Source: a virus. From it: DNA of 35,125 nt. Positions 4,757 through 27,646 of the stretch are shown in pieces. The position numbers and the translations under genes were made by a program. The notes below the pieces were generated by a model, which made no database searches, was not told the DNA's origin, and saw nothing but the letters and a program-made list of their open reading frames with translations. Location of the stretch: the IMG/VR virus record IMGVR_UViG_3300028550_000195, positions 1 to 35,125 of that record; one strand, written 5' to 3'. How positions within the stretch are numbered: the first letter of the stretch is position 1; every line of letters starts with the position of its first letter.

Positions 4757-7647
4757 AGAAGATCAGCGCTACCTAAACCACCTAACAGAGTAGCCGCCGC
4801 CGCAGGGCTTTGCCTTGCTCGATCTCTAACTGAAGGTGTCTGCATAGGAGAAACGGCTTCTGGATTGTAAAACGATCTATTTAAAGATGTTACTTCTGGT
4901 ATTTCTATACCTTGTGATCTTATTGATGGCGTAGTAGGTTCAGAAACTATTTCATTTTGAATATCACTTATTAAATTAGAAGCGTTATCTCTTGTAGAAG
5001 ATACAACATTTGAAGCCTCCCTAACTCCAGTTTGTTTTGCAAAAGATTGTGCAGTTTGATTCATAATACTTAAAAACACTTGCATCTTACCTTCAGGAGT
5101 TTTAACTTTTGCAGCTTCTTTTCCATATTTAGCCGCGAATGATTTATACATTGCTTCGTTTGAAAGAAGTTTACCTATTACAAAAAATCTTGCAATTCTT
5201 CCTAGATTTTGAAGAGGGTTAGCCGCAATGTTAGCTGCAACAAGATCACCACCTTGAGCAGACTTACCAAGAACATTCATAATTCTACCAAATTTATAAA
5301 TGTCTTTAGCTTGATCTGCGCTAAACAATTCATCTAAGGTACCTGTTTTTTTAGCGGAATCAAATCTTTTAGCTAAAAGCTTAAATGCAGATTTGTCTGT
5401 TAAGAAAGTTTCTTCAAAGTCACCAATGAGGTTGTTCATATAATAACTTCGCACATTTTCCATTTGAGCAGGATCGTCATTAAAGTATTTTATTAATTTT
5501 TTTACATCAGGCCCACGCATAGCGGGACTTGAAATTAAATCAGCAGCTTCTTCTGCACTAAGGACGCCAGTGCGAAGTTTGGCATTTACAGAAGTCTTTT
5601 TAAATAAAGCTTCTTCGTCCATAGCTGTTTGAACTTTTTGCAACAAGCTTATTCCAGCATCATCAGCACCAGATTTTGCAAAATCATTAATTAAACTTTG
5701 ATTTACGTTAGTTAAAGAAAGTGCATCTAGTTGATCTGCAAGTTTTTTTATTTCTGCTGCTTCTTTTCCGAACAATTCATCGGCTGTAGAGCCAAGCTTG
5801 TCTAATTTATCTTTAAATCTGCTGCCGCTAAACTTCTTTTTAGAACCCTCACCTACTCCAGATTCTTTTAAATTTCTTCTTAGCCATTCACCAGCAGCAC
5901 GTTTTCGCAAAGGCTCGTAAGTGTTAGGGGCAAATTTATCTAAAGCACTTTTTGTATCTTTTAAAAGTCTTGCGTTGTCATTTCTGATTAGATCACCAAA
6001 CTTACCTGCTGGGTTGGCTTCTTTGCTTCCAGACTTAACCGCTTTTGCGAGTTCTTTCATACTAGCCGCTTCAGATACTGCCTCAAACTTTTCCATTCCT
6101 TCTCTAAAGAATTTATTAGCTGGAACTAATTGTTTAGATGCAACTTTCATTAAGTTTTTTTGCGTTTCATTAAGATTTCCAGCAGCATTGCTTCGTAAAG
6201 CGGCTCCAAGACCTTTGGGCTGAATGCGACTATCTAGCTGTCCAAGAAACTTGTCTTTCATAAACCTAACGCTGTCAGAGCCATAGTTGCCCATCCATGT
6301 GTCGTTTAAAGATTTTCTTGCTTTGTATATTTGCGCAAAAGAAGCACTATCTCCTAGATTTATTATATCTTGCAAGGCATTTTGAACTTTTCCTAAGTTA
6401 CCACCACCAGCAGCCACTAATTGATTAAGTTCTCTTTCTGCGTCTTTGACTATCGCAGATGTCTTAAAAATATTTGCATCACCAGTTGCGCTAGATACAA
6501 GATTATCTATGTTTTCATACTGTATTCTAGCTTGAGTATCAAATTCTTTAAACGCTTGACTAAAAGACTTTTGTATTCCAGCATCTATATCGACATCTTT
6601 AACTGCGGCTTTACCCATTTGAGTAGCTATGTCATCCATGTGACGCAAAAGATCAGAAGATGTTTTCTTTGATTGGTTTAATAGCGCTGTGTCTCCAGCT
6701 TTGACTGCATTAGTTAATAAATCTGCTGTTTGAATTACATCTACAATTCCATTGCTTCCTAAAACTCTTAATTTTGATAGGTCTTCCATAATTCTTTTAT
6801 TGTTATTAACCAACCGACCAGTCGATCCTAAAACTTTATCACTAATTGCTTGCTGTCTTGAAATAATTGAGTTTGCGCCAATAGCATCCATTGAAGGTAA
6901 TAATCCTGCTTCTATAGCTTCGGCAGCGTCTTTTGCTTCTTGAGCCGATAGCTTATTGCCAACACGACCACGCCCTGCAACTGCTCCAAACCCCTTACCT
7001 ACTGCCGCGAATATACCTTCACCAGCGGCGGCTATTAAAGCTTCTTTACCTGCGGCTTTGCTAACATCAAGAAAGCTTTCTTCTTGCGTTCCTCTTAGCG
7101 TTTCTATGCCCTCTTCTACAAACTTACCGCCACCAGCACCAATGCCAGCACCAATCATTGCACCAAGAATTGGAATAGGAATCATGGCTTGACCAGCTAT
7201 AGCACCAGCAATACCACCAACAATCTCTTCTCCAGCTTCTCCAACAAAATCTTGCAAGTCAGCTAAACTAAACCCACTTTCATCAATCATAATTGGCTTA
7301 TCAGTTTCAATATCTAACAGTAAAGCGCCTTGCGGTGTTAAAGCAAGATTGCCACTACTATCACGAATGTAGTCGCCTTCTCTAAATCCATACCGACCTA
7401 ATACATTTTCTTCTTCTTTATAATTTTCTGCTCCACCTAATTGACGGCGCAAAGATGAGTCTTTAATTCCTGTTTCAGTGTCAAATTGGCTTGAGCCTTT
7501 AGGAGAAATTCCGCTTTCACGAGAGTTCATTTCATTTTTACGAACAAGTTTTTCAGCTTGCATCATTTCAGAATATGTAGGCTCTTCACCTTTTATTTCA
7601 AAAGGAACAAAGTTTCCGGGTTCAATTTCTAACTCAATAGTTCCCAT
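4753..7647 (-). CDS. large internal virion / ejection protein
   Basis: 964 aa, the last gene of the late operon. The N terminus (LEIEPGNFVPFEIKGEEPT) resembles a short beta motif seen at the start of many podovirus internal proteins. Residues 141-174 form a glycine-zipper hydrophobic hairpin (GGIAGAIAGQAMIPIPILG then GAGIGAGGG) that could insert into a membrane. The rest is long, charged, mostly helical sequence with coiled-coil character up to about residue 880. It ends in a Pro/Ser-rich tail. Such proteins are stored in the capsid and ejected to form a channel across the cell envelope. No lytic or enzymatic motif is visible. It shares one base with the previous gene (TAATG) and converges with the regulator gene. 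Confidence 0.7.
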   Translation of the reverse strand: MGTIELEIEPGNFVPFEIKGEEPTYSEMMQAEKLVRKNEMNSRESGISPKGSSQFDTETGIKDSSLRRQLGGAENYKEEENVLGRYGFREGDYIRDSSGNLALTPQGALLLDIETDKPIMIDESGFSLADLQDFVGEAGEEIVGGIAGAIAGQAMIPIPILGAMIGAGIGAGGGKFVEEGIETLRGTQEESFLDVSKAAGKEALIAAAGEGIFAAVGKGFGAVAGRGRVGNKLSAQEAKDAAEAIEAGLLPSMDAIGANSIISRQQAISDKVLGSTGRLVNNNKRIMEDLSKLRVLGSNGIVDVIQTADLLTNAVKAGDTALLNQSKKTSSDLLRHMDDIATQMGKAAVKDVDIDAGIQKSFSQAFKEFDTQARIQYENIDNLVSSATGDANIFKTSAIVKDAERELNQLVAAGGGNLGKVQNALQDIINLGDSASFAQIYKARKSLNDTWMGNYGSDSVRFMKDKFLGQLDSRIQPKGLGAALRSNAAGNLNETQKNLMKVASKQLVPANKFFREGMEKFEAVSEAASMKELAKAVKSGSKEANPAGKFGDLIRNDNARLLKDTKSALDKFAPNTYEPLRKRAAGEWLRRNLKESGVGEGSKKKFSGSRFKDKLDKLGSTADELFGKEAAEIKKLADQLDALSLTNVNQSLINDFAKSGADDAGISLLQKVQTAMDEEALFKKTSVNAKLRTGVLSAEEAADLISSPAMRGPDVKKLIKYFNDDPAQMENVRSYYMNNLIGDFEETFLTDKSAFKLLAKRFDSAKKTGTLDELFSADQAKDIYKFGRIMNVLGKSAQGGDLVAANIAANPLQNLGRIARFFVIGKLLSNEAMYKSFAAKYGKEAAKVKTPEGKMQVFLSIMNQTAQSFAKQTGVREASNVVSSTRDNASNLISDIQNEIVSEPTTPSIRSQGIEIPEVTSLNRSFYNPEAVSPMQTPSVRDRARQSPAAAATLLGGLGSADLL

Positions 7648-9443
7648 TATTTTTTTATCCTTTGAATTTTTCCGTCAACAAATACAAGGTCTCCTTGACC
7701 TTTTAAGTCATCGTAAGTTCCAAATTTTTTCAATATTTCAGCACGAGTGCTTTTTTCGTGATTAGTCGGGTCAAGTAATTCTTCTAACGCGCCATCAAAT
7801 TCTTTTTCTTTTTTGTAAAAAATTCTATCTAATTTATCTAAAGCTAAATTAGTCGCATCAAGGTTTGAAAATATGGTTTGATTCCCCATTAAATCTTTAG
7901 TCCACATTTCAACATCTTTATCAGAAATTCCGTTACCTGTTTCTTGTGTTAAAAACCTTTTAAATTCAGCTAATATTGATTTTACACCTTTGTCATAATC
8001 TTCAACATTAGTAGGTTGTCCAGTTAAATAGTTAGCAGGCATTACCGCTTTTCCGAAAGAAAGAAGTTTGTCATATACAAAAGCTTTACTACCTCCACCT
8101 TCAGCTATTTCTGCGGCGGCTCCCTTTAACCCAGTAATCAATTCCCTCGCGTCAGTAACTCCCTCTCGTCCCTGTATATGCTTTTTAATTGCATTCTCTG
8201 GTTTTAATAGGAATCCTCCATTGGGGTCTGTGCTATCATATACATACTTTACTTCCCAAGAAGCCGCAGACCCTTGGCCTACTGCATATGTTCTACCGTC
8301 AACTTTAGTAAAATCTTTTCCTGCCGCTTCAGCTTCTGCCATTTGCTCTTGAATGGTTAGCTTACTTTCTAAAAGATTTTCTTCGCGCTTTAGAGAGGAA
8401 TCATAAAACTTTAAATACAAATCGTTTTTGAATTTTGCACTAGATGATATTGCAGCACGCTCTGCTGCAACATCAGCCTTTTGTTGACCAAGTGCGTATT
8501 GACCTGCTGCAAGCTGGCCTGCTTTAGCATTAGCAGTTGCTTTGTCTAAGGCAGGAAGCGCTTCTTCACCCGCAACAGCAGTTTCTTTAAGTATTTTACT
8601 GACATTAAAATCTTTACCAGCTTTATTTTGCATAAGAGCTAAACCAAAAGACATTAAAGCTCTGCCTTTATCAACCTTACCACTAACATCTATTCCTGTA
8701 GCTTCTGAAAATTCTTTTTTATATCTTTCAAGAGAATCTTTTTTGCTTTCACTTTCTTTGGGAGAGGCATCAATTCCTAAAATTGATTGAGCATCTTGCC
8801 AAGCGGCAGAAAATCCATCATCTAAATTTTCTTGTGAACCTAATACTTTAGGTTCTCCACCTCTAAATCCATCATCTGGACCCTTTGATGTAGAGTTATC
8901 TAACAATGAAGCTTTTAACCCTTCACCAGCCGCCTCAATGCCACTTGATGCAGAGCCGTCTAAGATAGGTTGTTGAGCTTCAGCTAATGTTGCAGCTATT
9001 TGATCAAGTCCAGATTCATCAAAAACCGAAGAGTTGTTCGGCATATCTTCTATTCGAAGAGAATCTTTTCTAAGTTCTTCTTTTTGAGTTAAATTTCCAA
9101 TTCCATCAAATCTTCCAGCACCTGCGTTATCTAGTATTTCTCGTTTAGCAAATCCTAACTCGCTAGACTTAAAAGGATCATCTAAAAATATACCTAAACC
9201 ATCAGCTCCGGCTGTTCTTGAATTAATATCATCAACTATTCCTTGATATATTCCAGATTTTTTAGGGTTTGCTTTAATTACTGGAGAAAATCTTTCACCA
9301 ATTTCTTTAAACGCGTCTAATCTACCTCCGGGACTACTTTGAAAAGAAGGCACTTCAAAATAAGTACCACCAGATTCTGGGCCTTCAGTTTGGAATAAGG
9401 TTTTTAATGTTTTTGCAATTTCGCTACCACTAGGATCAGCCAT
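7647..9443 (-). CDS. internal virion / ejection protein candidate
   Basis: 598 aa of hydrophilic, mainly helical sequence with no signal peptide and no clear membrane segment. There is a long Ala-rich coiled-coil-like stretch around 255-350 (DKATANAKAGQLAAGQYALG). The N-terminal 230 residues are rich in Gly, Ser and Asp and probably flexible. The position is between two other large helical proteins behind the nozzle gene, the usual site of podovirus ejection proteins, which often come as a set of three or four. The start has AAGG 8 bases before ATG. I recognise no enzymatic motif; the role is inferred from context and composition. Confidence 0.6.
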   Translation of the reverse strand: MADPSGSEIAKTLKTLFQTEGPESGGTYFEVPSFQSSPGGRLDAFKEIGERFSPVIKANPKKSGIYQGIVDDINSRTAGADGLGIFLDDPFKSSELGFAKREILDNAGAGRFDGIGNLTQKEELRKDSLRIEDMPNNSSVFDESGLDQIAATLAEAQQPILDGSASSGIEAAGEGLKASLLDNSTSKGPDDGFRGGEPKVLGSQENLDDGFSAAWQDAQSILGIDASPKESESKKDSLERYKKEFSEATGIDVSGKVDKGRALMSFGLALMQNKAGKDFNVSKILKETAVAGEEALPALDKATANAKAGQLAAGQYALGQQKADVAAERAAISSSAKFKNDLYLKFYDSSLKREENLLESKLTIQEQMAEAEAAGKDFTKVDGRTYAVGQGSAASWEVKYVYDSTDPNGGFLLKPENAIKKHIQGREGVTDARELITGLKGAAAEIAEGGGSKAFVYDKLLSFGKAVMPANYLTGQPTNVEDYDKGVKSILAEFKRFLTQETGNGISDKDVEMWTKDLMGNQTIFSNLDATNLALDKLDRIFYKKEKEFDGALEELLDPTNHEKSTRAEILKKFGTYDDLKGQGDLVFVDGKIQRIKK

Positions 9444-14656: not shown

Positions 14657-15169
14657 TTATATCATTTTTAAAGATTGCTCTAACGTTTCCTTGTTGCGCC
14701 TAGTCCATCCACGTCCAAATGTTTTAAACGTATCTAAACTTTCGTAAAATCCCTGACGTACATCATGGACATACTCAATGATAAATTTAGGGTCTTTTTC
14801 CATGACCAATGCAAGTGTAGCGGGGCCAATGGCTCCGTCTTGCGTAGCGCCCACTGCTCGTTGCACAGCTTTTGCAGGTCTACCTGAACCGGAATTTACG
14901 GCCCAATCAAAGCAGGCCCAATCCAAACCAGAATAAAGTGAATCTCCTTTAACTCGATTCCAGTAGTTTTTCTTGTATATCGGGCCAACATCATCAGGTG
15001 TTAGGTCACGCATTTCTTGCTCCGTAGACTCACGACCAATCCACTCGTCGTACACCTTTTTAGTGACTCCCAAATTTGTGATACCTCCGGGATCATCTGG
15101 ATGATTTACAAATCCCCCTTCGTGTTTTAACAACATTTTCAAGCACTTATCAAAGTTTTCTGCACTCAT
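14657..15169 (-). CDS. GH108 endolysin (peptidoglycan hydrolase)
   Basis: 170 aa. The N-terminal domain has HEGGFVNHPDDPGGITNLGV (residues 16-35), the glycoside hydrolase 108 signature, with E17 as the catalytic acid. The C-terminal half (about 90-165; KAVQRAVGATQDGAIGPATL) matches the peptidoglycan-binding domain that usually follows. The length is standard for this family (about 170-180). It cuts the glycan strands of the cell wall at lysis. No signal peptide or SAR anchor is visible, so it depends on the holin encoded just upstream, whose stop overlaps this start by 4 bases. An intrinsic terminator follows the gene. A firm call. Confidence 0.95.
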   Translation of the reverse strand: MSAENFDKCLKMLLKHEGGFVNHPDDPGGITNLGVTKKVYDEWIGRESTEQEMRDLTPDDVGPIYKKNYWNRVKGDSLYSGLDWACFDWAVNSGSGRPAKAVQRAVGATQDGAIGPATLALVMEKDPKFIIEYVHDVRQGFYESLDTFKTFGRGWTRRNKETLEQSLKMI

Positions 15170-15519
15170 TTTTTGCCTCCAAAGAATTTACTTACGCCAC
15201 GCATACCAATGCTCGCACTAACTATACCGCCAAGACTATACTGATACCAATCAGGCATAACTTCTAGTGCCACAAAACCACGTTGCACAATGTCATTACC
15301 CCAATCCCCACAGAACGCCAAAATAAGGGGAATACTGAACAAAAGTGTAATCCACTCATCCTTCCAACTATTCTGTGTAGCCTTCATAGCTTCGATGTCC
15401 CAGTCTATTTCACCTGTGGCTATCTTCATTTTAGTTTCGGCTTCTGCTTTCTTTACGACAGTCTTTCCGTCAATAAATGCTGTAGCTAATCCTGCTACAC
15501 TATTAATAATACCTAGCAT
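15166..15519 (-). CDS. holin, GTA three-TM type
   Basis: 117 aa. A short hydrophobic N terminus (LGIINSVAGLATAFI, 2-16) is followed by a charged amphipathic linker (about 19-50), then a clear membrane helix (WITLLFSIPLILAFCGDW, 56-73). A third weak hydrophobic segment near 92-112 ends in GMRGVSKFFGGKK. The KDEW, PDWYQ and GMR features fit the three-TM holin family first described in gene transfer agents. It would form membrane lesions that release the endolysin. The start shares one base with the stop of the EF-hand gene, and the stop overlaps the endolysin, giving a compact lysis cassette. Confidence 0.8.
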   Translation of the reverse strand: MLGIINSVAGLATAFIDGKTVVKKAEAETKMKIATGEIDWDIEAMKATQNSWKDEWITLLFSIPLILAFCGDWGNDIVQRGFVALEVMPDWYQYSLGGIVSASIGMRGVSKFFGGKK

Positions 15520-15836
15520 TATGAATCACCCTTTTTCTTAATATTAGTAAAGCCAAAGAACGCACCTACTATTGCACTAACAGATATAAAATACACACCA
15601 GCAATAGATTTTAATCCCTCAGTAGCTTCAGTTAGGCCAGCTATAGCTGTAATGATAATTGCAAATGGATATATAAGCATACCAACCAGAGCAAACCACA
15701 CCATCTTTCGTTGCTGATCTCGCTTCGAGTCTTCATCGTCAATTTGTCTTCGCTTGTCGTCAAGTAACAAAGCGTCCCACTCACTTTTTTCAATTGAGCC
15801 GCTTTTATCTCTATCTATGTCATCAAATGTAGTCAT
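15519..15836 (-). CDS. EF-hand membrane protein of the lysis cassette
   Basis: 105 aa. Residues 8-19 (DRDKSGSIEKSE) form a textbook EF-hand calcium loop, with D1, D3, S5, G6, I8 and E12 all in place. A charged linker and two membrane helices (about 46-68 and 76-98) follow, then a KKKGDS tail. The EF-hand probably faces the cytoplasm if the positive inside rule holds for the QRK and KKK flanks. It lies directly upstream of the holin, so it may be a second holin, an antiholin or a calcium-sensing regulator of lysis. A single EF-hand would need to pair with another copy. AGGAG 6 bases before the ATG supports the start. Confidence 0.7.
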   Translation of the reverse strand: MTTFDDIDRDKSGSIEKSEWDALLLDDKRRQIDDEDSKRDQQRKMVWFALVGMLIYPFAIIITAIAGLTEATEGLKSIAGVYFISVSAIVGAFFGFTNIKKKGDS

Positions 15837-15845
15837 TTTGATCTC

Positions 15846-16346
15846 CTAATCTGCCAAAGGATTGTCTAAAGCTCTTTGTAATTTGCCCATTAGTCTGTCT
15901 TCTAATTCTTTCATATCGGAGTTTTGTGACGTTCTAACACGTTCTCTCTGATTTTCAAAGCGAACTTCTGCTGCATCAATCATTGCCCGTATCTTGTCTT
16001 CGCTCTCACGAACCATATCTTCGATGCGGTCTGTCTGTTGTTCAATGCGCAGTATGTCATCTTTTAGGCCATTTTTAATGTCGCGTGTGTATTCAACACT
16101 TTCTTCTACTTTGTCAGATATGCCACTTATCTTAGCGTCAGACACGTCCATTTGCTGTTGGTATTCACCAAGGTCTAACCCTGCGACAGCCTCAATCTTT
16201 TGGTATAGGACAAAGCCACCATACAACCCACCAACCACGCTTGATATAAATGCGAGTATAGCCATGATTGATCCAAACGACATCTTAACACCGCCAGCTT
16301 TAAACTCACGATCTTCAAGTTCACCAACTGTTGTTAAATCCACCAT
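15846..16346 (-). CDS. membrane-anchored coiled-coil protein
   Basis: 166 aa. One membrane helix (SIMAILAFISSVVGGLYGGF, about 25-50) follows a short N-terminal tail. About 110 residues of charged coiled coil come next (VEESVEYTRDIKNGLKDD, IEQQTDRIEDMVRESEDK). The layout is like an inner-membrane spanin or a holin-associated factor, although no outer-membrane partner with a lipobox is visible. It heads the lysis cassette, and its start shares one base with the secreted 132-aa gene (TAATG). I do not recognise a named family. A role in lysis or in linking the secreted cassette to the inner membrane is inferred. Confidence 0.65.
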   Translation of the reverse strand: MVDLTTVGELEDREFKAGGVKMSFGSIMAILAFISSVVGGLYGGFVLYQKIEAVAGLDLGEYQQQMDVSDAKISGISDKVEESVEYTRDIKNGLKDDILRIEQQTDRIEDMVRESEDKIRAMIDAAEVRFENQRERVRTSQNSDMKELEDRLMGKLQRALDNPLAD

Positions 16347-16744
16347 TAGTTTTCAAAGTCCATTTCACCGTCCGCTTGTTGTAGATTTTTTAACGCTTCA
16401 AGTTCGTCTCGTAGCTTCTGTACTTCTAACCTACGCTTAGTTAATTCTATTTGATAAAGATCATCACAATTTATACGTGAACGTGGTTTGTCCAACGGAA
16501 TAACTATACGAGCGTACACGCCTATGTCTTTACCACGACTGCTTGTATCCAACCCAGAAAGTACCCCTGTCACACCGTACTCAAGGTTTACGCCTCCGCC
16601 TACTGCGTTACTGCACCGTAGGTTGCCTGACGAAAATGAGTCTGATTGGTAGTTCATCGGTGGATTTGGCAGGGATAAAGATAGCGAACTACTATCTGCA
16701 ACAGCAGAACTAGCCATAGCACAAAGAGCGAGAGCTAGTCTCAT
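16346..16744 (-). CDS. secreted protein with C-terminal helix, unknown
   Basis: 132 aa. A good Sec signal peptide (MRLALALCAMASSAVA, cut before DSS) is followed by a Ser/Leu/Pro-rich segment (SSLSLSLPNPPMNYQSDSFS) and a Gly-rich beta part with two cysteines (C35 and C88). A long charged helix ends the protein (IELTKRRLEVQKLRDELEAL). A frame opens 9 codons upstream, but the ATG at 16744 overlaps the previous stop in the ATGA pattern and gives the signal peptide directly. It is the last of the secreted cassette (18964 to 16346). I recognise no named family; periplasmic or surface location is predicted from the signal peptide. Confidence 0.65.
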   Translation of the reverse strand: MRLALALCAMASSAVADSSSLSLSLPNPPMNYQSDSFSSGNLRCSNAVGGGVNLEYGVTGVLSGLDTSSRGKDIGVYARIVIPLDKPRSRINCDDLYQIELTKRRLEVQKLRDELEALKNLQQADGEMDFEN

Positions 16745-17127
16745 GCAGGCTTTCCATCTAACCGTGAACATATCCTAGAAGAAATAAGTGTGCTTGATAC
16801 TAACGACTTCTTAACTTTCGAAGTAGTGCAGAGATACACCGCTTCGGGTAAATCGTATTTACGGATGTATACATCAAACGCTTTATGTTCTTTGTAACCT
16901 ACCTTTATAATCCTGTACGTTGTAGAGAAGGGGATGTTTGTCCAATTTAAATCAAACAACTCAATTTGATAATACTTGATTTCTTCCCTAGAATTAAACA
17001 GAGACATCTCCACTTTAACCACATCCTTGACGTGTGAAGGCTTTACCACAGGGTACGCAGGTGTCATCTCATGCCCAGATAGAGCTGTTGCCCAGAGCAA
17101 AAATGCTATGATGATGCTACTTCGCAA
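16741..17127 (-). CDS. secreted Ig-like / chaperone-like protein, TTG start
   Basis: 128 aa from a TTG at 17127. This start gives a clean signal peptide (MRSSIIIAFLLWATALSG) and only an 11-base overlap with the pilin-like gene upstream; the frame is open to an ATG at 17229 with no signal peptide there. The mature part is beta-rich: SHVKDVVKVEMSLFNSREE, then YYQIELFDLNW, and AFDVYIRKYDLPEAVYLCTT. This strand pattern is like an Ig-type domain such as the N-domain of a pilus chaperone. It follows a pilin-like protein, which strengthens that reading, but no usher gene is present. The fold comparison is by eye and uncertain. Confidence 0.5.
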   Translation of the reverse strand: MRSSIIIAFLLWATALSGHEMTPAYPVVKPSHVKDVVKVEMSLFNSREEIKYYQIELFDLNWTNIPFSTTYRIIKVGYKEHKAFDVYIRKYDLPEAVYLCTTSKVKKSLVSSTLISSRICSRLDGKPA

Positions 17128-17605
17128 TGCAACTAGCCAACACAACAGCCGTGTATGTGCCCCCCGGTAGCGGTTTTGCTGAACCGTATATGGCACTTGA
17201 AGCAGTGCTGAACCACGTTGACCCTGCAAGTGTCAGATTGAATATAGTGCTATTACCTACCACTGTTTTAGCTGCATTATAGGCTGACATACCCGCAACA
17301 GATGTCTGTGTAACTGCTGTACTACCAGTCCAAGCAACTGTATCAGAAAGTGTAGGAGAAGAACTGAAGGCTGTGGGATGTGTTATATTAGCTGTGTAAG
17401 CATCAGCAATAGAAACATCGTATCGAACGATAGGTAGTACACCACCATCCGCAGGTGTTGTGCTTAATTTACTAGCAATCGGGTTGCCGTAAACACCTGA
17501 TTTATTTGTTTGGATAACACATTTAGCTTCTACACTGCCTGTGATTTCTACATTTGCTAGTGCAGGAAAAGCACAAAGCGAAAGTACCACAATAAAATAT
17601 TTCAT
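17117..17605 (-). CDS. secreted pilin-like beta protein
   Basis: 162 aa from the ATG at 17605, chosen over an ATG 4 codons upstream because GAGG lies 6 bases before it. A Sec signal peptide (MKYFIVVLSLCAFPALA) precedes NVEITGSVEAKCVIQTNKSG. The mature chain is Ser/Thr/Ala-rich and beta-rich. It has cysteines near each end (C29 and C159) and a terminal strand LPGGTYTAVVLASCIAK. The opening and closing strands resemble CS1/CFA-I-type pilins or spore-coat-U-like domains, in which a long strand closes the fold. It lies between a 290-aa secreted protein and a chaperone-like protein. The pilin comparison rests on pattern only. Confidence 0.6.
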   Translation of the reverse strand: MKYFIVVLSLCAFPALANVEITGSVEAKCVIQTNKSGVYGNPIASKLSTTPADGGVLPIVRYDVSIADAYTANITHPTAFSSSPTLSDTVAWTGSTAVTQTSVAGMSAYNAAKTVVGNSTIFNLTLAGSTWFSTASSAIYGSAKPLPGGTYTAVVLASCIAK

Positions 17606-17613
17606 ATTAAACC

Positions 17614-18486
17614 TCATTGGTTGTATTGCATATTAACCATTTTCTCATGCAAAATTTGTTGCGCCAAATTATTACGCAAGGCTTTCTTATTATCAGGCAA
17701 TTTAGAATCAACCAATCCAGCAACATCTTCATATGCGCCACCGTTAATAGACGCATTATAATACATATTAATGTTTGTTTGTCGATTGATAGCCATAATA
17801 ATATCAGATTGTCCCTGCGCTTTAAATAAAGTCAAAGCGTTGGCAGACGCAATTAACCCCATCTCTAACCTAGTTTCTTTTTCTTCCATTTCTTCTTCAA
17901 GTATAAGATCACCATTTTCATCATACTTAAATTCTGTGTCTTCGTCTATAGCACCCAAAACTGCTTCATCTTCTAGCGCATCATAGATTTCTACTACGGG
18001 GATAACAGGGATAGGTTTGACATACCCCGGACATGCAGGGTTAGACTGTTCATCGTAACACTCGTCTACTCGGTAACTATATATAACAAAAGCGTCTGAC
18101 ACACTGCCTTTACCTTCAACAGCAATTGAACCGTTGCCCCACTTAGAAGCTGCTACGTTAGCTAGAGGGAAAGACTTAACGATTGTGTTGCCGGGAACTC
18201 CAGACCAATCATCCGTTTCACTGAACGTGTATCCGTCACCTTTTGCATTTAGATTACGGACGTGAACTTTCATGTCATCTTCTGGGTTTTTAACTGCGGT
18301 GTATCTGTATAGAAGTCCGTTTATATCTAAGCCGGGAATAGATGGCAGAACAGAACCCATACTCCAGCTCAGTGCTGTGGACGCCGCGTTCCCTGATACC
18401 CCATAACTGTAGGGATCACATTGCGAGTAAGAAGGCCAAAGTGCCAAGAATAACACTAAGCCCTGTTTTAGTTTCAATGTTTTCAT
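17614..18486 (-). CDS. secreted acidic protein, unknown
   Basis: 290 aa. The signal peptide is MKTLKLKQGLVLFLALWPSY, cut near SQC. A beta-rich part (about 25-150) contains RYTAVKNPEDDMKVHVRNLN and a GYTFSETDDWSGVPGN segment, a motif I have seen in other uncultured marine phage proteins without a known role. A strongly acidic linker follows (about 170-205, EEEMEEKE), then a helical C-terminal part. GAGGAAG 8 bases before the ATG supports the start, although it overlaps the previous gene by 71 bases. It is the largest member of the secreted cassette and could be an adhesin or scaffold. No enzyme motif is visible. Confidence 0.6.
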   Translation of the reverse strand: MKTLKLKQGLVLFLALWPSYSQCDPYSYGVSGNAASTALSWSMGSVLPSIPGLDINGLLYRYTAVKNPEDDMKVHVRNLNAKGDGYTFSETDDWSGVPGNTIVKSFPLANVAASKWGNGSIAVEGKGSVSDAFVIYSYRVDECYDEQSNPACPGYVKPIPVIPVVEIYDALEDEAVLGAIDEDTEFKYDENGDLILEEEMEEKETRLEMGLIASANALTLFKAQGQSDIIMAINRQTNINMYYNASINGGAYEDVAGLVDSKLPDNKKALRNNLAQQILHEKMVNMQYNQ

Positions 18487-18964
18487 TGAACAGCTTCCTC
18501 ATCGGGTTGTTTTGTTCGTATTCAATTTCGTCGATTTCGGCTTGCATTTCCCAAGCTAACCTAGCCTTATCTCCCACCAATCCATCTTTGGGGCAGGGAG
18601 TTCCAGCATTCATCATCGCGTCAAACACACGTTCATCCTGACACATTACAGATACGGCAGCTACCTTCATGCCCATATCATACATGGTTTTAGCGTTTTT
18701 TAATTTTTCGCAATTCATATCACGTACAGTGCGACCTGCCGATATGCCTAATATCTGTGTCTGAACTGCACCAGCTACACCAACAGTACACAAATCAGAG
18801 TTACTTGCGCTAATCTGCGGTGATATAGCTGATGGTGGTGGACTGTTAATAGTTGTGTCCATTTCACCATCAGATATTACTGTAGTCTCAGTCCTGATTG
18901 TATCATCGGCAAAAGCTAAACTGCCAAATACAATAAAAAATGCAAGTATAAGTAACCGTATCAT
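18416..18964 (-). CDS. secreted protein with C-terminal membrane anchor
   Basis: 182 aa. The signal peptide is MIRLLILAFFIVFGSLAFA, cut before DDT. The mature part has at least four cysteines, including MNCEKLKNAKTMYDMGMKVA and VMCQDERVFDAMMNAGTPCP, suggesting disulfides. A terminal hydrophobic run (GLSVILGTLAFLLAM, about 168-182) looks like a tail anchor. I recall similar proteins in marine phage contigs but know no function. It heads the secreted cassette, and its start overlaps the previous stop by 4 bases. A periplasmic protein tethered to the inner membrane is the simplest reading. Confidence 0.65.
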   Translation of the reverse strand: MIRLLILAFFIVFGSLAFADDTIRTETTVISDGEMDTTINSPPPSAISPQISASNSDLCTVGVAGAVQTQILGISAGRTVRDMNCEKLKNAKTMYDMGMKVAAVSVMCQDERVFDAMMNAGTPCPKDGLVGDKARLAWEMQAEIDEIEYEQNNPMRKLFNENIETKTGLSVILGTLAFLLAM

Positions 18965-19197
18965 TTTCGCTCCAACATACGATCCATTTTGCCATCTAGC
19001 GCGTCTAGCCTACTAATCACACGATCTATTGATGCAGTGGTATCGGTTTTTGTGGAATATTCTTTTGCGAGTTCTTCTCGCGTTCTATTAATAAGTATGG
19101 TGACGCGCTTTAGTTCATCGTGTTGTGTCTTAGCCCACCAAATGATGAAACCAAACCCAGCGGTTAGTAGGACATTCCAAAGCGCGTCCATTCCCAT
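18961..19197 (-). CDS. small membrane coiled-coil protein
   Basis: 78 aa. One N-terminal membrane helix (ALWNVLLTAGFGFIIWWA, 5-22) is followed by a charged coiled coil (LKRVTILINRTREELAKEY, then ISRLDALDGKMDRMLERK). Small proteins of this shape occur near the lysis genes of many phages and may act as holin-like or spanin-like factors. There is no lipobox. Its start shares one base with the preceding stop (TAATG), and its stop overlaps the secreted cassette. The role is inferred from position and shape. Confidence 0.6.
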   Translation of the reverse strand: MGMDALWNVLLTAGFGFIIWWAKTQHDELKRVTILINRTREELAKEYSTKTDTTASIDRVISRLDALDGKMDRMLERK

Positions 19198-19447: not shown

Positions 19448-22400
19448 TTATCCTTCTAGGGTTGTTATACGTGCTTCTAAAGCATCGTTCTTTGCTGATA
19501 GTTCTTGTAGTGCTTTGACTAATGGTATGACAAACATCTCACGAGATACTTGTTGCACTCCATTCTGGTCTTCTTTCCAACCAGCAAAGTTAGAAACCCC
19601 TGCTGTGTCTAATGCGGCTTTTACTTCTTGAGCAATAAAGTTGTGCATTACTACATCTGTATTCATCTCATTGTCTGCCGCATCCTCTTTATAAAGATGT
19701 GCTAACTGAGCATCTGTAGAGTCGAGTTCGTTACTTGCCTTCCAGTTATATTTAACAGTCCTAAGATCATTAATAAAATCTAAACCTAATGATTGATTTA
19801 CAATGTTTTTCTTTAATCGTTCATCGGATGACCGTGACCAGTTAGCATCTGCATCAAAGTCGTTTGTTACAACATTACCAGATTTACCAAATGAAAAGTC
19901 ATCTGAACTGGCAGTCATTGCTACTCCAATAGCTATAGCATTGTTCTGGGTAGCGCTAGTAAGAGTAGCGTTACGACCTATACATATATTATCAGTTCCA
20001 CCTCCAACACCATCACCAGACTCTTTACCTACAAAAGTATTGCCTGATGATGTTACAGCATCACCAGCATTATATCCCAAAACAGTGTTGTTATTACCCC
20101 CAGCAATTAAGCCACCTGAGACTGCACCAAAAACCACGTTTCCAGTTCCTGTTGTTACTGATAGACCAGCCTGATACCCAACGGCTGTATTGTTGCTGGC
20201 GGTGGTGTTTGCACCCAAGGCATCCCGCCCTATACCTATATTATTACTTCCTGATGTAAGAGCGTTAAAACATGCAGTACCTATTCCGACATTGTGAGAG
20301 CCTGTAGTAGTACCATCACGACCAGCAGAGTTTCCAACAAATGTGTTTTCTGTTCCTGTTGTATTACCTCGCCCAGCCTTACGACCAAAAAATGTATTTT
20401 GTGCGCCAGTAGTAGTACTAAACCCTGATTCGAAACCCACGGCTGTGTTGTTGGCTGCTGTCGTATTTGCAGTTAAAGAGTTGTACCCAACTGCTGTGTT
20501 GGTACCACCAGTTGTCGTAGCGTCACCTGAAAGGCCACCTATAAAGGTATTCTGTACGCCTGTGGTTACACTTCCTCCTGCGAAATGACCCATAGCCACA
20601 TTGTAAGCATCGGTAGCAGACGTAAAGTTCTGTGCTTCAAGTGCCTTATAACCAATCGCAATAGACCGACTACCTAAAGTATCTGAGGTTAAAGCAGATG
20701 TACCTAATACTACATTATAGTCTGCATCTGTTAAAGCATCACCTGCATTAGAACCAACGAGGGTGTTTTGTATGCCCGTGGTGATTGAAAAACCTGCACT
20801 AGCGCCAATTGCTACGTTGAAAGTATCGGTAGCAGACGTAAAGTTCTGAGTTGCTAAAGCACCATCACCTATAGCTGTAGATTTACTACCTAATGTATCT
20901 GAGCTTAGAGAATTATACCCAAGTGCTACGTTTTTATCTGCATCAGTTAATGCGTCACCAGCTAATCCACCTATGAGAGTGTTTCTTAGGCCTGTGGTTA
21001 CTGCGGCTCCTGCAAGATTGCCCACTGCTACGTTGTATGTGTCAGTAGCTGACGTAAAGTTTTGTACTCTTAATGCTCCCCATCCGATTGCTACACTCCT
21101 GCTACCTAGAGTGTCTGTTGATAAAGCTTCTTGTCCAACAGCAGTATTAAAATCAGCATCAGTTAAAGCATCACCTACACGACCACCGATTAAGGTGTTT
21201 TCTTTGCCTGTGGTTACTGATAGACCTGCATCAGCGCCAATTGCTACGTTGTAACTATCGGTAGCTGTAGTAAAGTTTTGGTTAGCTAACGCCCTATAAC
21301 CAACAGCAGTAGATAAACTTCCTAGTGTATCTGCTGTGATAGCTTGATGACCAATACCTATATTAAAGTCAGCATCCGTTAAGGCATCACCCGCTAGTCC
21401 ACCGATAAGGATGTTTCTTATGCCTGTGGTTACTTGTTGACCTGCATTGTAACCTACTGCAACGTTATAAGTATCTGTAGCAGACGTAAAGTTTTGACTA
21501 AATAATGTAGCATGACCAAGGGCAGTGCTTCTACTACCTAGAGTGTCACTGCTTAATGCAACAGTACCAACAGCTACGTTAAAATCAGCATCAGTTAAGG
21601 CATCACCTGCCTGAGTACCTATTAGAGCATTTTGTATGCCTGTGGTTACTAATAGACCTGCTCTATAACCTACTGCTGTATTGTCAGCATTTGTAGATGA
21701 TGTAAAGTTTTGTTGCCTTAAAGCTTCTCTACCAATAGCAGTAGAATTACTCCCTAAAATATTAGTAGCAAGTGCCTCTGAACCAAAAGCAGCATTTCCT
21801 GCACCTGTGGTGTTTGCTTTAAGAGCCAAAGACCCAACTGCCGTGTTGTTACTTGCGGTAGTGTTTTGGAGCAAGGCATCATAACCTATGCCAACATTAC
21901 TAGAACCAGAAGAATGATTATAACCAGCCCTATGGCCTATTAAAACGCTATCACTACCTGTCGTGCCATTGTAAAAAGCATCCATGCCAACAGTAACGTT
22001 ATCATTACCTGTTGTACTACTATAGCTTGCCCGATACCCAACGGCTGTATTGTTATCTGCCGTAGTAATTGCAGTACCTGCTTCATCGCCCACAGTCACG
22101 TTGTAGTTACCGCCAGATTGTATTGAGTTACCTGCGTTGACACCAAGGCGTAAGTTGGATGTACCTGCTGAAGCAGTAATAATATCTGCACCAGTTGCAA
22201 TAGTTACGTCTGCTGCAAAGTTTGCTGCTCCGTCTACGTCTACTACGTCTAGGTTAGTTGTGCCGTCTACGTCTATGTCTCCTGAGATGTCTAAGGAAGC
22301 ACCTGTAAGAACTCCTGCAACTGTAAGTGTAGAGGCCATATCAACAGCACCGTCGATATCTACCACGTCTAGGTTAGTTGTGCCGTCTACGTCTATGTCA

Positions 22401-22945
22401 CCTGAGATGTCTAAGGATGTTGCTGTTAATACTCCTGTCACACCAAGCGTTCCACCAACGGTCATATCATCAGTAACTGTTAGATCGTCACTAACTATCA
22501 AGTCATCAACAGTGGTTGTTCCAGCTAAATTAACCGCAGTAAGAAGATCGTGAACCACGCCTCCTGAACCTAGACCATCTGTTGCAATAACTTTGGTTTG
22601 ACCCGCAGGAATTATTACATTAGCGCCACTTCCGCAGGTAAAAGTCAAAGCAGCAGCCGTTGCGTTATACATGAACCAAGTTTTAGAACTCGTATTTGGA
22701 AGAAGTGTGACAGTACAAGCTTGTCCGCCGCCTGTGAGCTTTAGCCCAAGGCACCTGTCTGCGTCTAACGCACCATCGGCAATCGTAATATTGTCCGTGG
22801 AGGCGTTTGCAATTGCTCTGGTTCCCCAAGCAACTGATTGACCAATTATTTCTAAGTTAGTGTTTGTTGTATCGCCCCAAGTACCAGACTGTTCACCAGT
22901 GCCGATTTCTTCAAGGCGTAGATTGTTGACATATGTACTAGCCAT
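19448..22945 (-). CDS. trimeric tail fibre with S74 autochaperone
   Basis: 1165 aa. Residues 1-140 form an N-terminal region that probably attaches to the tail. Residues about 150-235 hold two 40-residue copies around LDISGDIDVDGTTNLDVVD. Residues about 285-1000 are built from 23-24-residue repeats of the NTAVGxxAL type, known from YadA-like beta-roll heads, grouped into five 72-residue super-repeats. The C terminus (1039-1165) is a peptidase S74 intramolecular chaperone with SSDERLKKNI, where the chain cuts itself at the SD serine after trimer folding. It ends in a coiled coil (ALQELSAKNDALEARITTLE). It binds the host surface. Its DNA repeats invite copy-number change. A firm call for fibre and S74. 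Confidence 0.92.
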   Translation of the reverse strand: MASTYVNNLRLEEIGTGEQSGTWGDTTNTNLEIIGQSVAWGTRAIANASTDNITIADGALDADRCLGLKLTGGGQACTVTLLPNTSSKTWFMYNATAAALTFTCGSGANVIIPAGQTKVIATDGLGSGGVVHDLLTAVNLAGTTTVDDLIVSDDLTVTDDMTVGGTLGVTGVLTATSLDISGDIDVDGTTNLDVVDIDGAVDMASTLTVAGVLTGASLDISGDIDVDGTTNLDVVDVDGAANFAADVTIATGADIITASAGTSNLRLGVNAGNSIQSGGNYNVTVGDEAGTAITTADNNTAVGYRASYSSTTGNDNVTVGMDAFYNGTTGSDSVLIGHRAGYNHSSGSSNVGIGYDALLQNTTASNNTAVGSLALKANTTGAGNAAFGSEALATNILGSNSTAIGREALRQQNFTSSTNADNTAVGYRAGLLVTTGIQNALIGTQAGDALTDADFNVAVGTVALSSDTLGSRSTALGHATLFSQNFTSATDTYNVAVGYNAGQQVTTGIRNILIGGLAGDALTDADFNIGIGHQAITADTLGSLSTAVGYRALANQNFTTATDSYNVAIGADAGLSVTTGKENTLIGGRVGDALTDADFNTAVGQEALSTDTLGSRSVAIGWGALRVQNFTSATDTYNVAVGNLAGAAVTTGLRNTLIGGLAGDALTDADKNVALGYNSLSSDTLGSKSTAIGDGALATQNFTSATDTFNVAIGASAGFSITTGIQNTLVGSNAGDALTDADYNVVLGTSALTSDTLGSRSIAIGYKALEAQNFTSATDAYNVAMGHFAGGSVTTGVQNTFIGGLSGDATTTGGTNTAVGYNSLTANTTAANNTAVGFESGFSTTTGAQNTFFGRKAGRGNTTGTENTFVGNSAGRDGTTTGSHNVGIGTACFNALTSGSNNIGIGRDALGANTTASNNTAVGYQAGLSVTTGTGNVVFGAVSGGLIAGGNNNTVLGYNAGDAVTSSGNTFVGKESGDGVGGGTDNICIGRNATLTSATQNNAIAIGVAMTASSDDFSFGKSGNVVTNDFDADANWSRSSDERLKKNIVNQSLGLDFINDLRTVKYNWKASNELDSTDAQLAHLYKEDAADNEMNTDVVMHNFIAQEVKAALDTAGVSNFAGWKEDQNGVQQVSREMFVIPLVKALQELSAKNDALEARITTLEG
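20621..21700 (-). repeat. five 216-bp tandem repeats in the fibre gene
   Basis: The short sequence CGTAAAGTT or a near copy recurs at 20621, 20837, 21053, 21269, 21485 and 21701, exactly 216 bases apart. This marks five units of 72 codons. Each unit encodes three 24-residue beta-roll repeats, with QNFTSATDTYN, TTGxxNTLIGG and DALTDADFN as landmarks. The units are diverged but alike enough for recombination. Confidence 0.9.
22245..22416 (-). repeat. near-identical direct repeat, 120-bp offset
   Basis: Two nearly identical 52-base copies at 22245-22296 and 22365-22416 encode the two SLDISGDIDVDGTTNLDVVD segments of the fibre. The low divergence compared with the larger repeats points to a recent duplication or gene conversion. 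Confidence 0.85.
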
Positions 22946-26988: not shown

Positions 26989-27585
26989 TTATGCGATTTG
27001 CACATACTCAATGATGAACGTAAACGAACCTGCTGTTGTAGCATTAACTGTATTTGTGATGTTACAGAAAATATTACGAGCTGCTGACGCATACTGAACA
27101 GAAGCTGGTGCAGTTGTACCATCTTGTGTTTGAAGAACTAGTTCTGTTAAAGTTACGTTGCCTAAGACAACTGTTGTACCAGCGTCTAAGATTTCGTCAG
27201 CCTGAGTAGCTACAATCTGCGCACCAGAAGAAGATGTACCTACTTCATAACCAATGTCACCACTTCCCGTTACAGGTGCAACGGCGCAAAAGATTTTAAT
27301 GTTAGTGATAATAGTGTTTGCAGGCTGTGCAAATGTACCAATAGTTGGAGAGTCACCTGCTGTAGAGTTTACTGTCACTCCAGTAACGTGAGCTACGTGT
27401 TTTACAAACAAACTATTAACAGCCGCTGACAATGTTGTTGCGCCTGTTACAGCAAGTGTTCCACCTACTGAGGCGTTTGTACCATATGTGGAATTAGTTG
27501 TTTGAGTGCCAGTTGTGGCATTGGTTGTGATGTCTTCAAAACCATTTTGCGAACGTACTGGTCCGCTGAAAGTAGAATTACCCAT
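26989..27585 (-). CDS. beta-rich capsid-associated protein
   Basis: 198 aa. The N terminus has STFSGPVRSQNGF, a short motif I know from other marine phage virion proteins. VGGTLAVTGATTL follows, resembling VGGTLGVTG in the fibre. The remaining 130 residues are beta-rich (SPTIGTFAQPANTIITNIKI, FTFIIEYVQIA). It lies directly after the major capsid gene and is bracketed by terminators, with a candidate promoter at 27617-27646. A capsid decoration protein made in its own amount is the best reading; no biochemical evidence. Confidence 0.6.
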   Translation of the reverse strand: MGNSTFSGPVRSQNGFEDITTNATTGTQTTNSTYGTNASVGGTLAVTGATTLSAAVNSLFVKHVAHVTGVTVNSTAGDSPTIGTFAQPANTIITNIKIFCAVAPVTGSGDIGYEVGTSSSGAQIVATQADEILDAGTTVVLGNVTLTELVLQTQDGTTAPASVQYASAARNIFCNITNTVNATTAGSFTFIIEYVQIA

Positions 27586-27616
27586 GAGAATCTCCTGTCG
27601 GGGTTAAGTCAGCCGC

Positions 27617-27646
27617 ATTATGCGACTGTCAGGGATAAGGCCACAA
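27617..27646 (-). promoter_or_regulatory. candidate promoter between capsid and next gene
   Basis: TTGTGG (27646-27641), 18 bases and CATAAT (27622-27617) resemble a moderate sigma70 promoter. The -10 is embedded in a small palindrome, CGCAT-T-ATGCG (27614-27624). It lies just downstream of the strong capsid terminator and could restart transcription of the 198-aa gene. The -35 is poor. Confidence 0.3.

Follow-up and report, generated by a model that had tools for sequence, protein, structure and literature searches.

An exported five-gene phage cassette with a possible usher-less relative of the chaperone-usher pathway

What a row of five overlapping genes for exported proteins does for a phage is the question raised by the IMG/VR virus record IMGVR_UViG_3300028550_000195. 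The window analysed here is the whole record, 35,125 bases in which portal, head and tail genes are present. Inspection of its open reading frames (ORFs) places the five genes, termed P1 to P5, on the minus strand from 18964 to 16346. The original prediction, made from the DNA letters, saw them as one undescribed system that may build a periplasmic or surface structure, act in lysis or block superinfection. The five-gene cassette is real and not a product of chance, a system that is widely conserved but lacks annotation. It consists of two modules, P1-P2 and a separable trio P3-P4-P5. The trio is proposed to be related to chaperone-usher pili, or at least to work analogously, but without an usher; with P5 as anchor or exporter, it would make a surface or periplasmic structure late in infection. 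The probability of this reading is put at roughly one half.

Signal peptides were ranked with a rule-based score, on which the known leaders of OmpA, PhoA and MalE reach 3.8 to 4.5 and shuffled N-termini exceed a looser cut of 2.4 in 10% of cases. P1 to P5 are the top five of the 40 window genes, all above 3.8, and among their relatives 107 of 108 also have such a signal, which bears out the predicted run of consecutive signal-peptide genes. All five predicted ORFs are present, and only the start of P3 had to be moved: it lies at 17617, the earlier 17605 being the second in-frame ATG. P4 starts with TTG in the window and with ATG in most relatives. Overlaps amount to 71 nucleotides for P1/P2, 4 for P2/P3, 11 for P3/P4 and 4 for P4/P5. 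The ratio of nonsynonymous to synonymous substitution rates (dN/dS) against relatives is 0.05-0.13, taken only where synonymous sites are unsaturated, a sign of strong purifying selection on each of the five genes. Searches of Pfam, NCBIfam and PADLOC, the last for known defence proteins, gave zero matches for P1 to P5, and only PHROGs of unknown function were found. The description as exported, beta-rich and undescribed proteins holds. A near-identity search among phage records returned no match, and a promoter and terminator scan of the cassette stayed at background level. The guanine-cytosine content of the cassette, 40-44%, lies within the window range of 37-46% and thus gives no sign of very recent acquisition.

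Relatives of P1 were found in at least 586 IMG/VR stretches and relatives of P5 in at least 512. Three scans provided 176 distinct viral loci, which were retrieved via similarity to P1 or P5 and are not a random sample. All five genes occur together in 127 of them, with the order P1-P2-P3-P4-P5 in every one (127/127). The gene order is thus conserved as predicted, and the genes do not turn up scattered singly, the result that had been named as speaking against a system. The notion of a single five-gene unit fares less well. The trio is found without P1-P2, and P1 is found without P2-P5, so the cassette combines two modules. P1 without the other four genes is present in the cultured pelagiphages HTVC115P, 202P, 033P, 023P, Mosig and Baldr, and the pelagiphages examined showed no trio in the vicinity of P1. 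A relationship between P2 and the large acidic protein that follows P1 in pelagiphages was considered, and no homology is claimed, as the hhalign alignment covers 13 columns only.

The trio without P1-P2 is carried by T5-like Vibrio phages of the Demerecviridae (pVp-1, VPT02, AG74 and many more), in which it is located between tail-fibre and lysis genes. It also occurs in a group of 79-kilobase Vibrio phages and, again without P1-P2, in the viral contigs L198, L199, L208, L213 and L236. The last of these contains two trios in tandem, the second being a divergent copy at 6852-8112. Bacterial carriers include a conjugative plasmid of V. nigripulchritudo, a Mesorhizobium plasmid and chromosomes of Hyphomicrobiales, first that of Fulvimarina pelagi HTCC2506, where the flanking genes appear by sequence inspection to be phospholipase-D-like and alanine-dehydrogenase-like. 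In chromosomal forms, a second copy of P3 is often the last gene. The order within the trio is fixed across viruses, Vibrio phages, Hyphomicrobiales chromosomes and plasmids. The trio is rare in bacteria, as P5 is matched in 8 of 297 Hyphomicrobiales genomes and 2 of 385 genomes of the class. A Rhodobacteraceae bin contains four copies of P5, which were not taken as host evidence, because their contigs have the same phage gene order and are probably phage contigs, and a weak genome match (L174) looks spurious after ORF inspection.

The functional argument starts from the predicted folds of P4 and P3. The AlphaFold2 model of P4 has a mean predicted local distance difference test score (pLDDT) of 81, based on an alignment of 27 sequences. 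In a Foldseek comparison with the PDB, its top 13 matches are all chaperones of chaperone-usher systems, led by FaeE (E 4e-4, probability 1.00) and Caf1M and followed by FimC and SfaE, with one of their two domains aligned. VIA-align places the match on the N-terminal residues of the chaperones, which suggests a domain like the N-terminal immunoglobulin (Ig) domain of PapD. Cys100 and Cys120 form an invariant pair on the model strands F1 and G1, and the second residue after Cys120 is Lys or Arg in 96 of 109 distinct sequences. FGL chaperones have an F1-G1 disulfide and an anchoring lysine on G1 (PMC4133393). With its F1-G1 cysteine pair, which is probably bonded, and its basic G1 residue, the modelled P4 resembles this class. 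Near the mature N-terminus, where chaperones have an anchoring Arg and those of the FGL type an extension, the compared P4 members share no invariant basic residue; the Vibrio plasmid member has 'PTR' and the others differ.

P3 was modelled with a pLDDT of 88 from 21 aligned sequences. Its top seven Foldseek matches in the PDB are all chaperone-usher pilin subunits, among them the pilin domain of PapG (E 1.2e-3, probability 1.00), CfaB, CsuA/B and a tip subunit of type 1 pili. Cys33 and Cys163 are invariant. Residues 22-32 are unpaired and of low pLDDT in the model, and P3 has a free N-terminal beta segment with alternating hydrophobic residues. The C-terminal motif of pilins consists of a glycine 14th from the end and a penultimate aromatic residue. 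Of 96 P3 sequences, 79 have the glycine at this position, and the chromosomal forms have it at -12. The V. nigripulchritudo plasmid operon adds a secreted protein of 264 amino acids whose C-terminal half looks P3-like on inspection; by analogy, this arrangement would be that of a tip adhesin.

Several observations weigh against a kinship with chaperone-usher proteins. The penultimate residue of P3 is not aromatic. With its 128 amino acids, P4 is a one-domain protein that lacks the second Ig domain of the L-shaped chaperones, and the relatives in phages and chromosomes are similar to it in length. Profile comparisons, run with cross controls, point toward the chaperone-usher family below the significance threshold, with Caf1 at E ~0.9 and DraB at E 1.2. 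With hhalign, P3 reaches 83% against K-12 pilins over the signal peptide and first strand only, and P4 reaches 19% against K-12 chaperones. Sequence searches of the PDB with P3, P4 and P5 profiles gave no significant match, and a BFVD search with P3 returned only unnamed or generic proteins. In VIA-align, generic Ig-like adhesin and integrin domains lead the P3 list with Z values of up to 7.5, and the top 50 contain no pilin. For P4, an Ig domain of a glycosidase (Z 10.1) exceeds FimC (9.1), SafB (~9) and the chaperones in general (8-9). Of the two fold matches, that of P3 is the weaker.

P3 and P4 could accordingly be unrelated periplasmic Ig-like proteins that share only a generic fold with pilins and chaperones, the trio doing something else. 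The VIA-align ranking, which puts generic Ig domains as high as the pilins and chaperones, and the lack of a significant sequence-profile match would be expected in that case. It leaves aside that the leading Foldseek matches of both proteins belong to one system, that P4 has the F1-G1 cysteine pair with the basic G1 residue, and that the pairing of the P3 and P4 genes is invariant. This explanation is considered rather unlikely. Two neighbouring genes separately match two partners of one system, and it is this joint result that carries the weight. The predicted structure-building role accordingly finds support in the modelled pilin and chaperone folds, for P3 and P4 only.

The usher itself was sought with PF00577, which was absent from the window ORFs scanned, from six trio-bearing bacterial genomes and from 18 phage and plasmid records with a trio, whereas the E. 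coli control was positive; viral records may be incomplete. An usher encoded by the host is possible for the phages and unlikely for the six bacteria. The trio resembles chaperone-usher systems of the FGL type (e.g., F4/Fae and Dr) and of class 5 (CfaA-CfaB) in the predicted fold of P4 with its F1-G1 cysteine pair, in the P3 fold, which is nearest to pilin domains, in the adjacency of subunit and chaperone genes and in the Sec-type signals. It differs in that its chaperone is a single domain of ~110 residues when mature, in that the carriers tested have no usher and instead have a third small cysteine-paired protein, P5, in that it has no Pfam match and in that both phages and bacteria carry it. 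Because two defining features, the two-domain chaperone and a recognisable usher, are lacking, the trio is not called a member of the pathway and is reported as an usher-less variant or analogue of it. No papers on phage-borne chaperone or pilin genes were found in the open-access literature.

P5 may act at the outer membrane. Its Cys44/Cys93 pair is invariant in 108 of 108 distinct sequences and encloses amphipathic segments with hydrophobic alternation at ~52-61 and 74-84, followed by a heptad-like helix. This pattern would be in keeping with a protein that oligomerises and has hairpins in the outer membrane and a coiled coil in the periplasm, and P5 may possibly be an anchor or exporter. 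From these features we infer the following course, including P3-P4 binding, polymerisation, the location of P5, the timing and the phage benefit. All three trio proteins would be exported through Sec. Once in the periplasm, P3 would take on an Ig-like fold and leave its N-terminal beta segment free as a donor strand, and P4, as a single PapD-like N-terminal domain, would hold P3 via its G1 strand until assembly. With its amphipathic beta segments and coiled coil, P5 would anchor or export the product at the outer membrane and perhaps dock on a coiled coil in d1, the membrane protein encoded by the next gene. In the phage, translation of the trio would accompany that of the late lysis genes, and the exported P1 and P2 would be added to it. 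Just before lysis, the infected cell would bear a structure on its surface or in its periplasm, a timing suggested by the gene overlaps with the lysis genes. The phage would probably benefit from altered adhesion or aggregation, or from a cell surface that is masked from phages arriving later. A bolder version, regarded as doubtful, sees in the trio a minimal pathway that secretes and assembles its product without an usher. The P5 oligomer, with beta hairpins and coiled coils, would then serve the P3 fibres as a pore or platform in the outer membrane; the trio would have been exchanged among phages, plasmids and bacteria, and phages would use it to alter the surface of the dying cell.

The location between fibre and lysis genes was predicted correctly: a tail-fibre-like gene with an S74 domain lies on one side of the cassette, and lysis genes ending with a GH108 endolysin lie on the other (Table 1). 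P5 overlaps d1 by 1 nucleotide, and the cassette runs almost unbroken into d1, d2, d3 and the endolysin. d1 follows P5 immediately in 114 of 133 loci. It is homologous to gp49 of HTVC115P (L001:10685-11113, E 4e-43), so that the neighbourhood of P1 and d1 is common to a pelagiphage without P3-P5. Near the P1 region of HTVC115P, gp46 (L001:13387-13836) is annotated as a toxin-activating lysine-acyltransferase. Elsewhere in the window, an Rfam match to Mu-gpT-DE RNA (RF03012, 61.9 bits) covers 27583-27634 of the minus strand, close to the gene for the major head protein.

Table 1. Genes of the cassette and its flanks in the window, in order along the minus strand.
Feature	Coordinates	Strand	Description
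Tail-fibre-like gene	19448-22945		S74 chaperone domain; flank of the cassette on the fibre side
u1	18961..19197	-	78 aa; transmembrane helix and coiled coil; immediately upstream of P1
P1	18416..18964	-	182 aa, exported; conserved domain containing Cys; hydrophobic C-terminal tail; in many marine phages including pelagiphages
P2	17614..18486	-	290 aa, exported; acidic middle; conserved C-terminal segment 'NNLAQQ-LHEKMV-MQY'
P3	17117..17617	-	166 aa, exported; predicted Ig-like subunit, chaperone-usher pilin-like
P4	16741..17127	-	128 aa, exported; one domain; predicted fold of a chaperone-usher chaperone N-terminal domain
P5	16346..16744	-	132 aa, exported; Cys44/Cys93 around amphipathic beta-like segments; coiled-coil-like C-terminal helix; possible outer-membrane anchor or exporter
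d1	15846..16346	-	Transmembrane helix and coiled coil; weak spanin-like match
d2	15519..15836	-	Small protein of the lysis region; EF-hand-like calcium-binding motif at the N-terminus; hydrophobic membrane segments
d3	15166..15519	-	Possible holin-like membrane protein, the holin role being inferred; phrog_2524 (function unknown)
GH108 endolysin	14657..15169	-	Ends the lysis genes

Such an arrangement could mean that P1 to P5 and d1 form a lysis-stage module, which weakens or bridges the envelope in the manner of spanins or disruptins and helps the downstream holin and endolysin. Besides the unbroken passage of overlapping genes into the endolysin and the spanin-like traits of d1, the unrelated T5-like Vibrio phages fit this idea, since there the trio adjoins holin and endolysin and a small lipoprotein-like gene overlaps after P5. 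In chromosomes and plasmids, however, the trio is a stand-alone operon beside metabolic or cyclic di-GMP (c-di-GMP) genes, with no lysis genes. These copies make a purely lytic role, one of those originally proposed, unlikely. In addition, d1 is not directly 3' of P5 in 19 of 133 loci, and P3 and P4 resemble a subunit and chaperone pair and not lysis proteins. Overall, a lysis module is judged improbable.

Superinfection exclusion, also raised by the original prediction, is a possible role of the trio. The exported proteins would mask or occupy the phage receptor and thus function like Llp of T5, an exported superinfection-exclusion lipoprotein that provides a precedent (PMC9586334). The trio lies between tail-fibre and lysis genes in two unrelated phage groups, where late exported proteins could act in this way. 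Like Llp, which acts at the outer membrane, the trio proteins are small exported proteins of T5-like phages. They differ from it in sequence, in forming a multi-gene block and in the lack of a canonical lipobox in P3-P5, and the T5-like Vibrio phages have a separate lipoprotein-like gene after P5. In Vibrio phages, such a small overlapping gene encodes a lipobox-like 'LIISGC' or 'FLVSSC' (L089:7239-7442, L088:7284-7442, L278:7077-7478) and is possibly a fourth member, a spanin or an Llp analogue. If a protein that blocks a receptor is part of an arms race, fast change might be expected of it, in contrast to the low dN/dS of all five genes, and the chromosomal copies have no phage context. As an explanation of its own, exclusion is therefore seen as a poor prospect, although it may also be the purpose of the chaperone-usher-like structure.

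Another phage-borne precedent is provided by the curli genes of pelagiphages and related phages, which have been proposed for aggregation, superinfection defence or lysis control (PMC9599517, PMC9004378). These genes of type VIII secretion (CsgG, CsgF, CsgA/B, FecR) are comparable to the cassette, as they are carried by phages, encode an exported surface structure and are missing from the host. P1 to P5 match no curli family and their gene order differs. An identity with curli was thus rejected, since there was no Pfam or NCBIfam match to CsgG, CsgF or CsgA/B repeats and the genes are different.

The usher-less chaperone-usher reading of the trio is also touched by the genes beside it. EAL or GGDEF genes adjoin the trio, in copies that lack P1-P2, on two plasmids and in two viruses (L208:3899-4606, L236:2703-4703, L277:7362-8084, L279:505-2931); for viruses, genes of this kind seem unusual. 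Such c-di-GMP genes commonly control adhesion and biofilm, and their presence next to the trio fits adhesion. A caution applies to this link, as it comprises few loci, two of them related, and EAL/GGDEF genes are common in Vibrio and Mesorhizobium.

If the proposed reading is true, a pilin and chaperone pair is exported without an usher in many phages from marine and other environments, cultured Vibrio phages, bacterial chromosomes and plasmids, in all of which it is annotated as hypothetical. The trio is carried by organisms in culture, namely the Vibrio phages pVp-1, AG74 and VPT02 and the bacteria Fulvimarina and Mesorhizobium, and is testable now. A simpler form of chaperone-assisted surface assembly would then exist, and phages could remodel the surface of their host before lysis.

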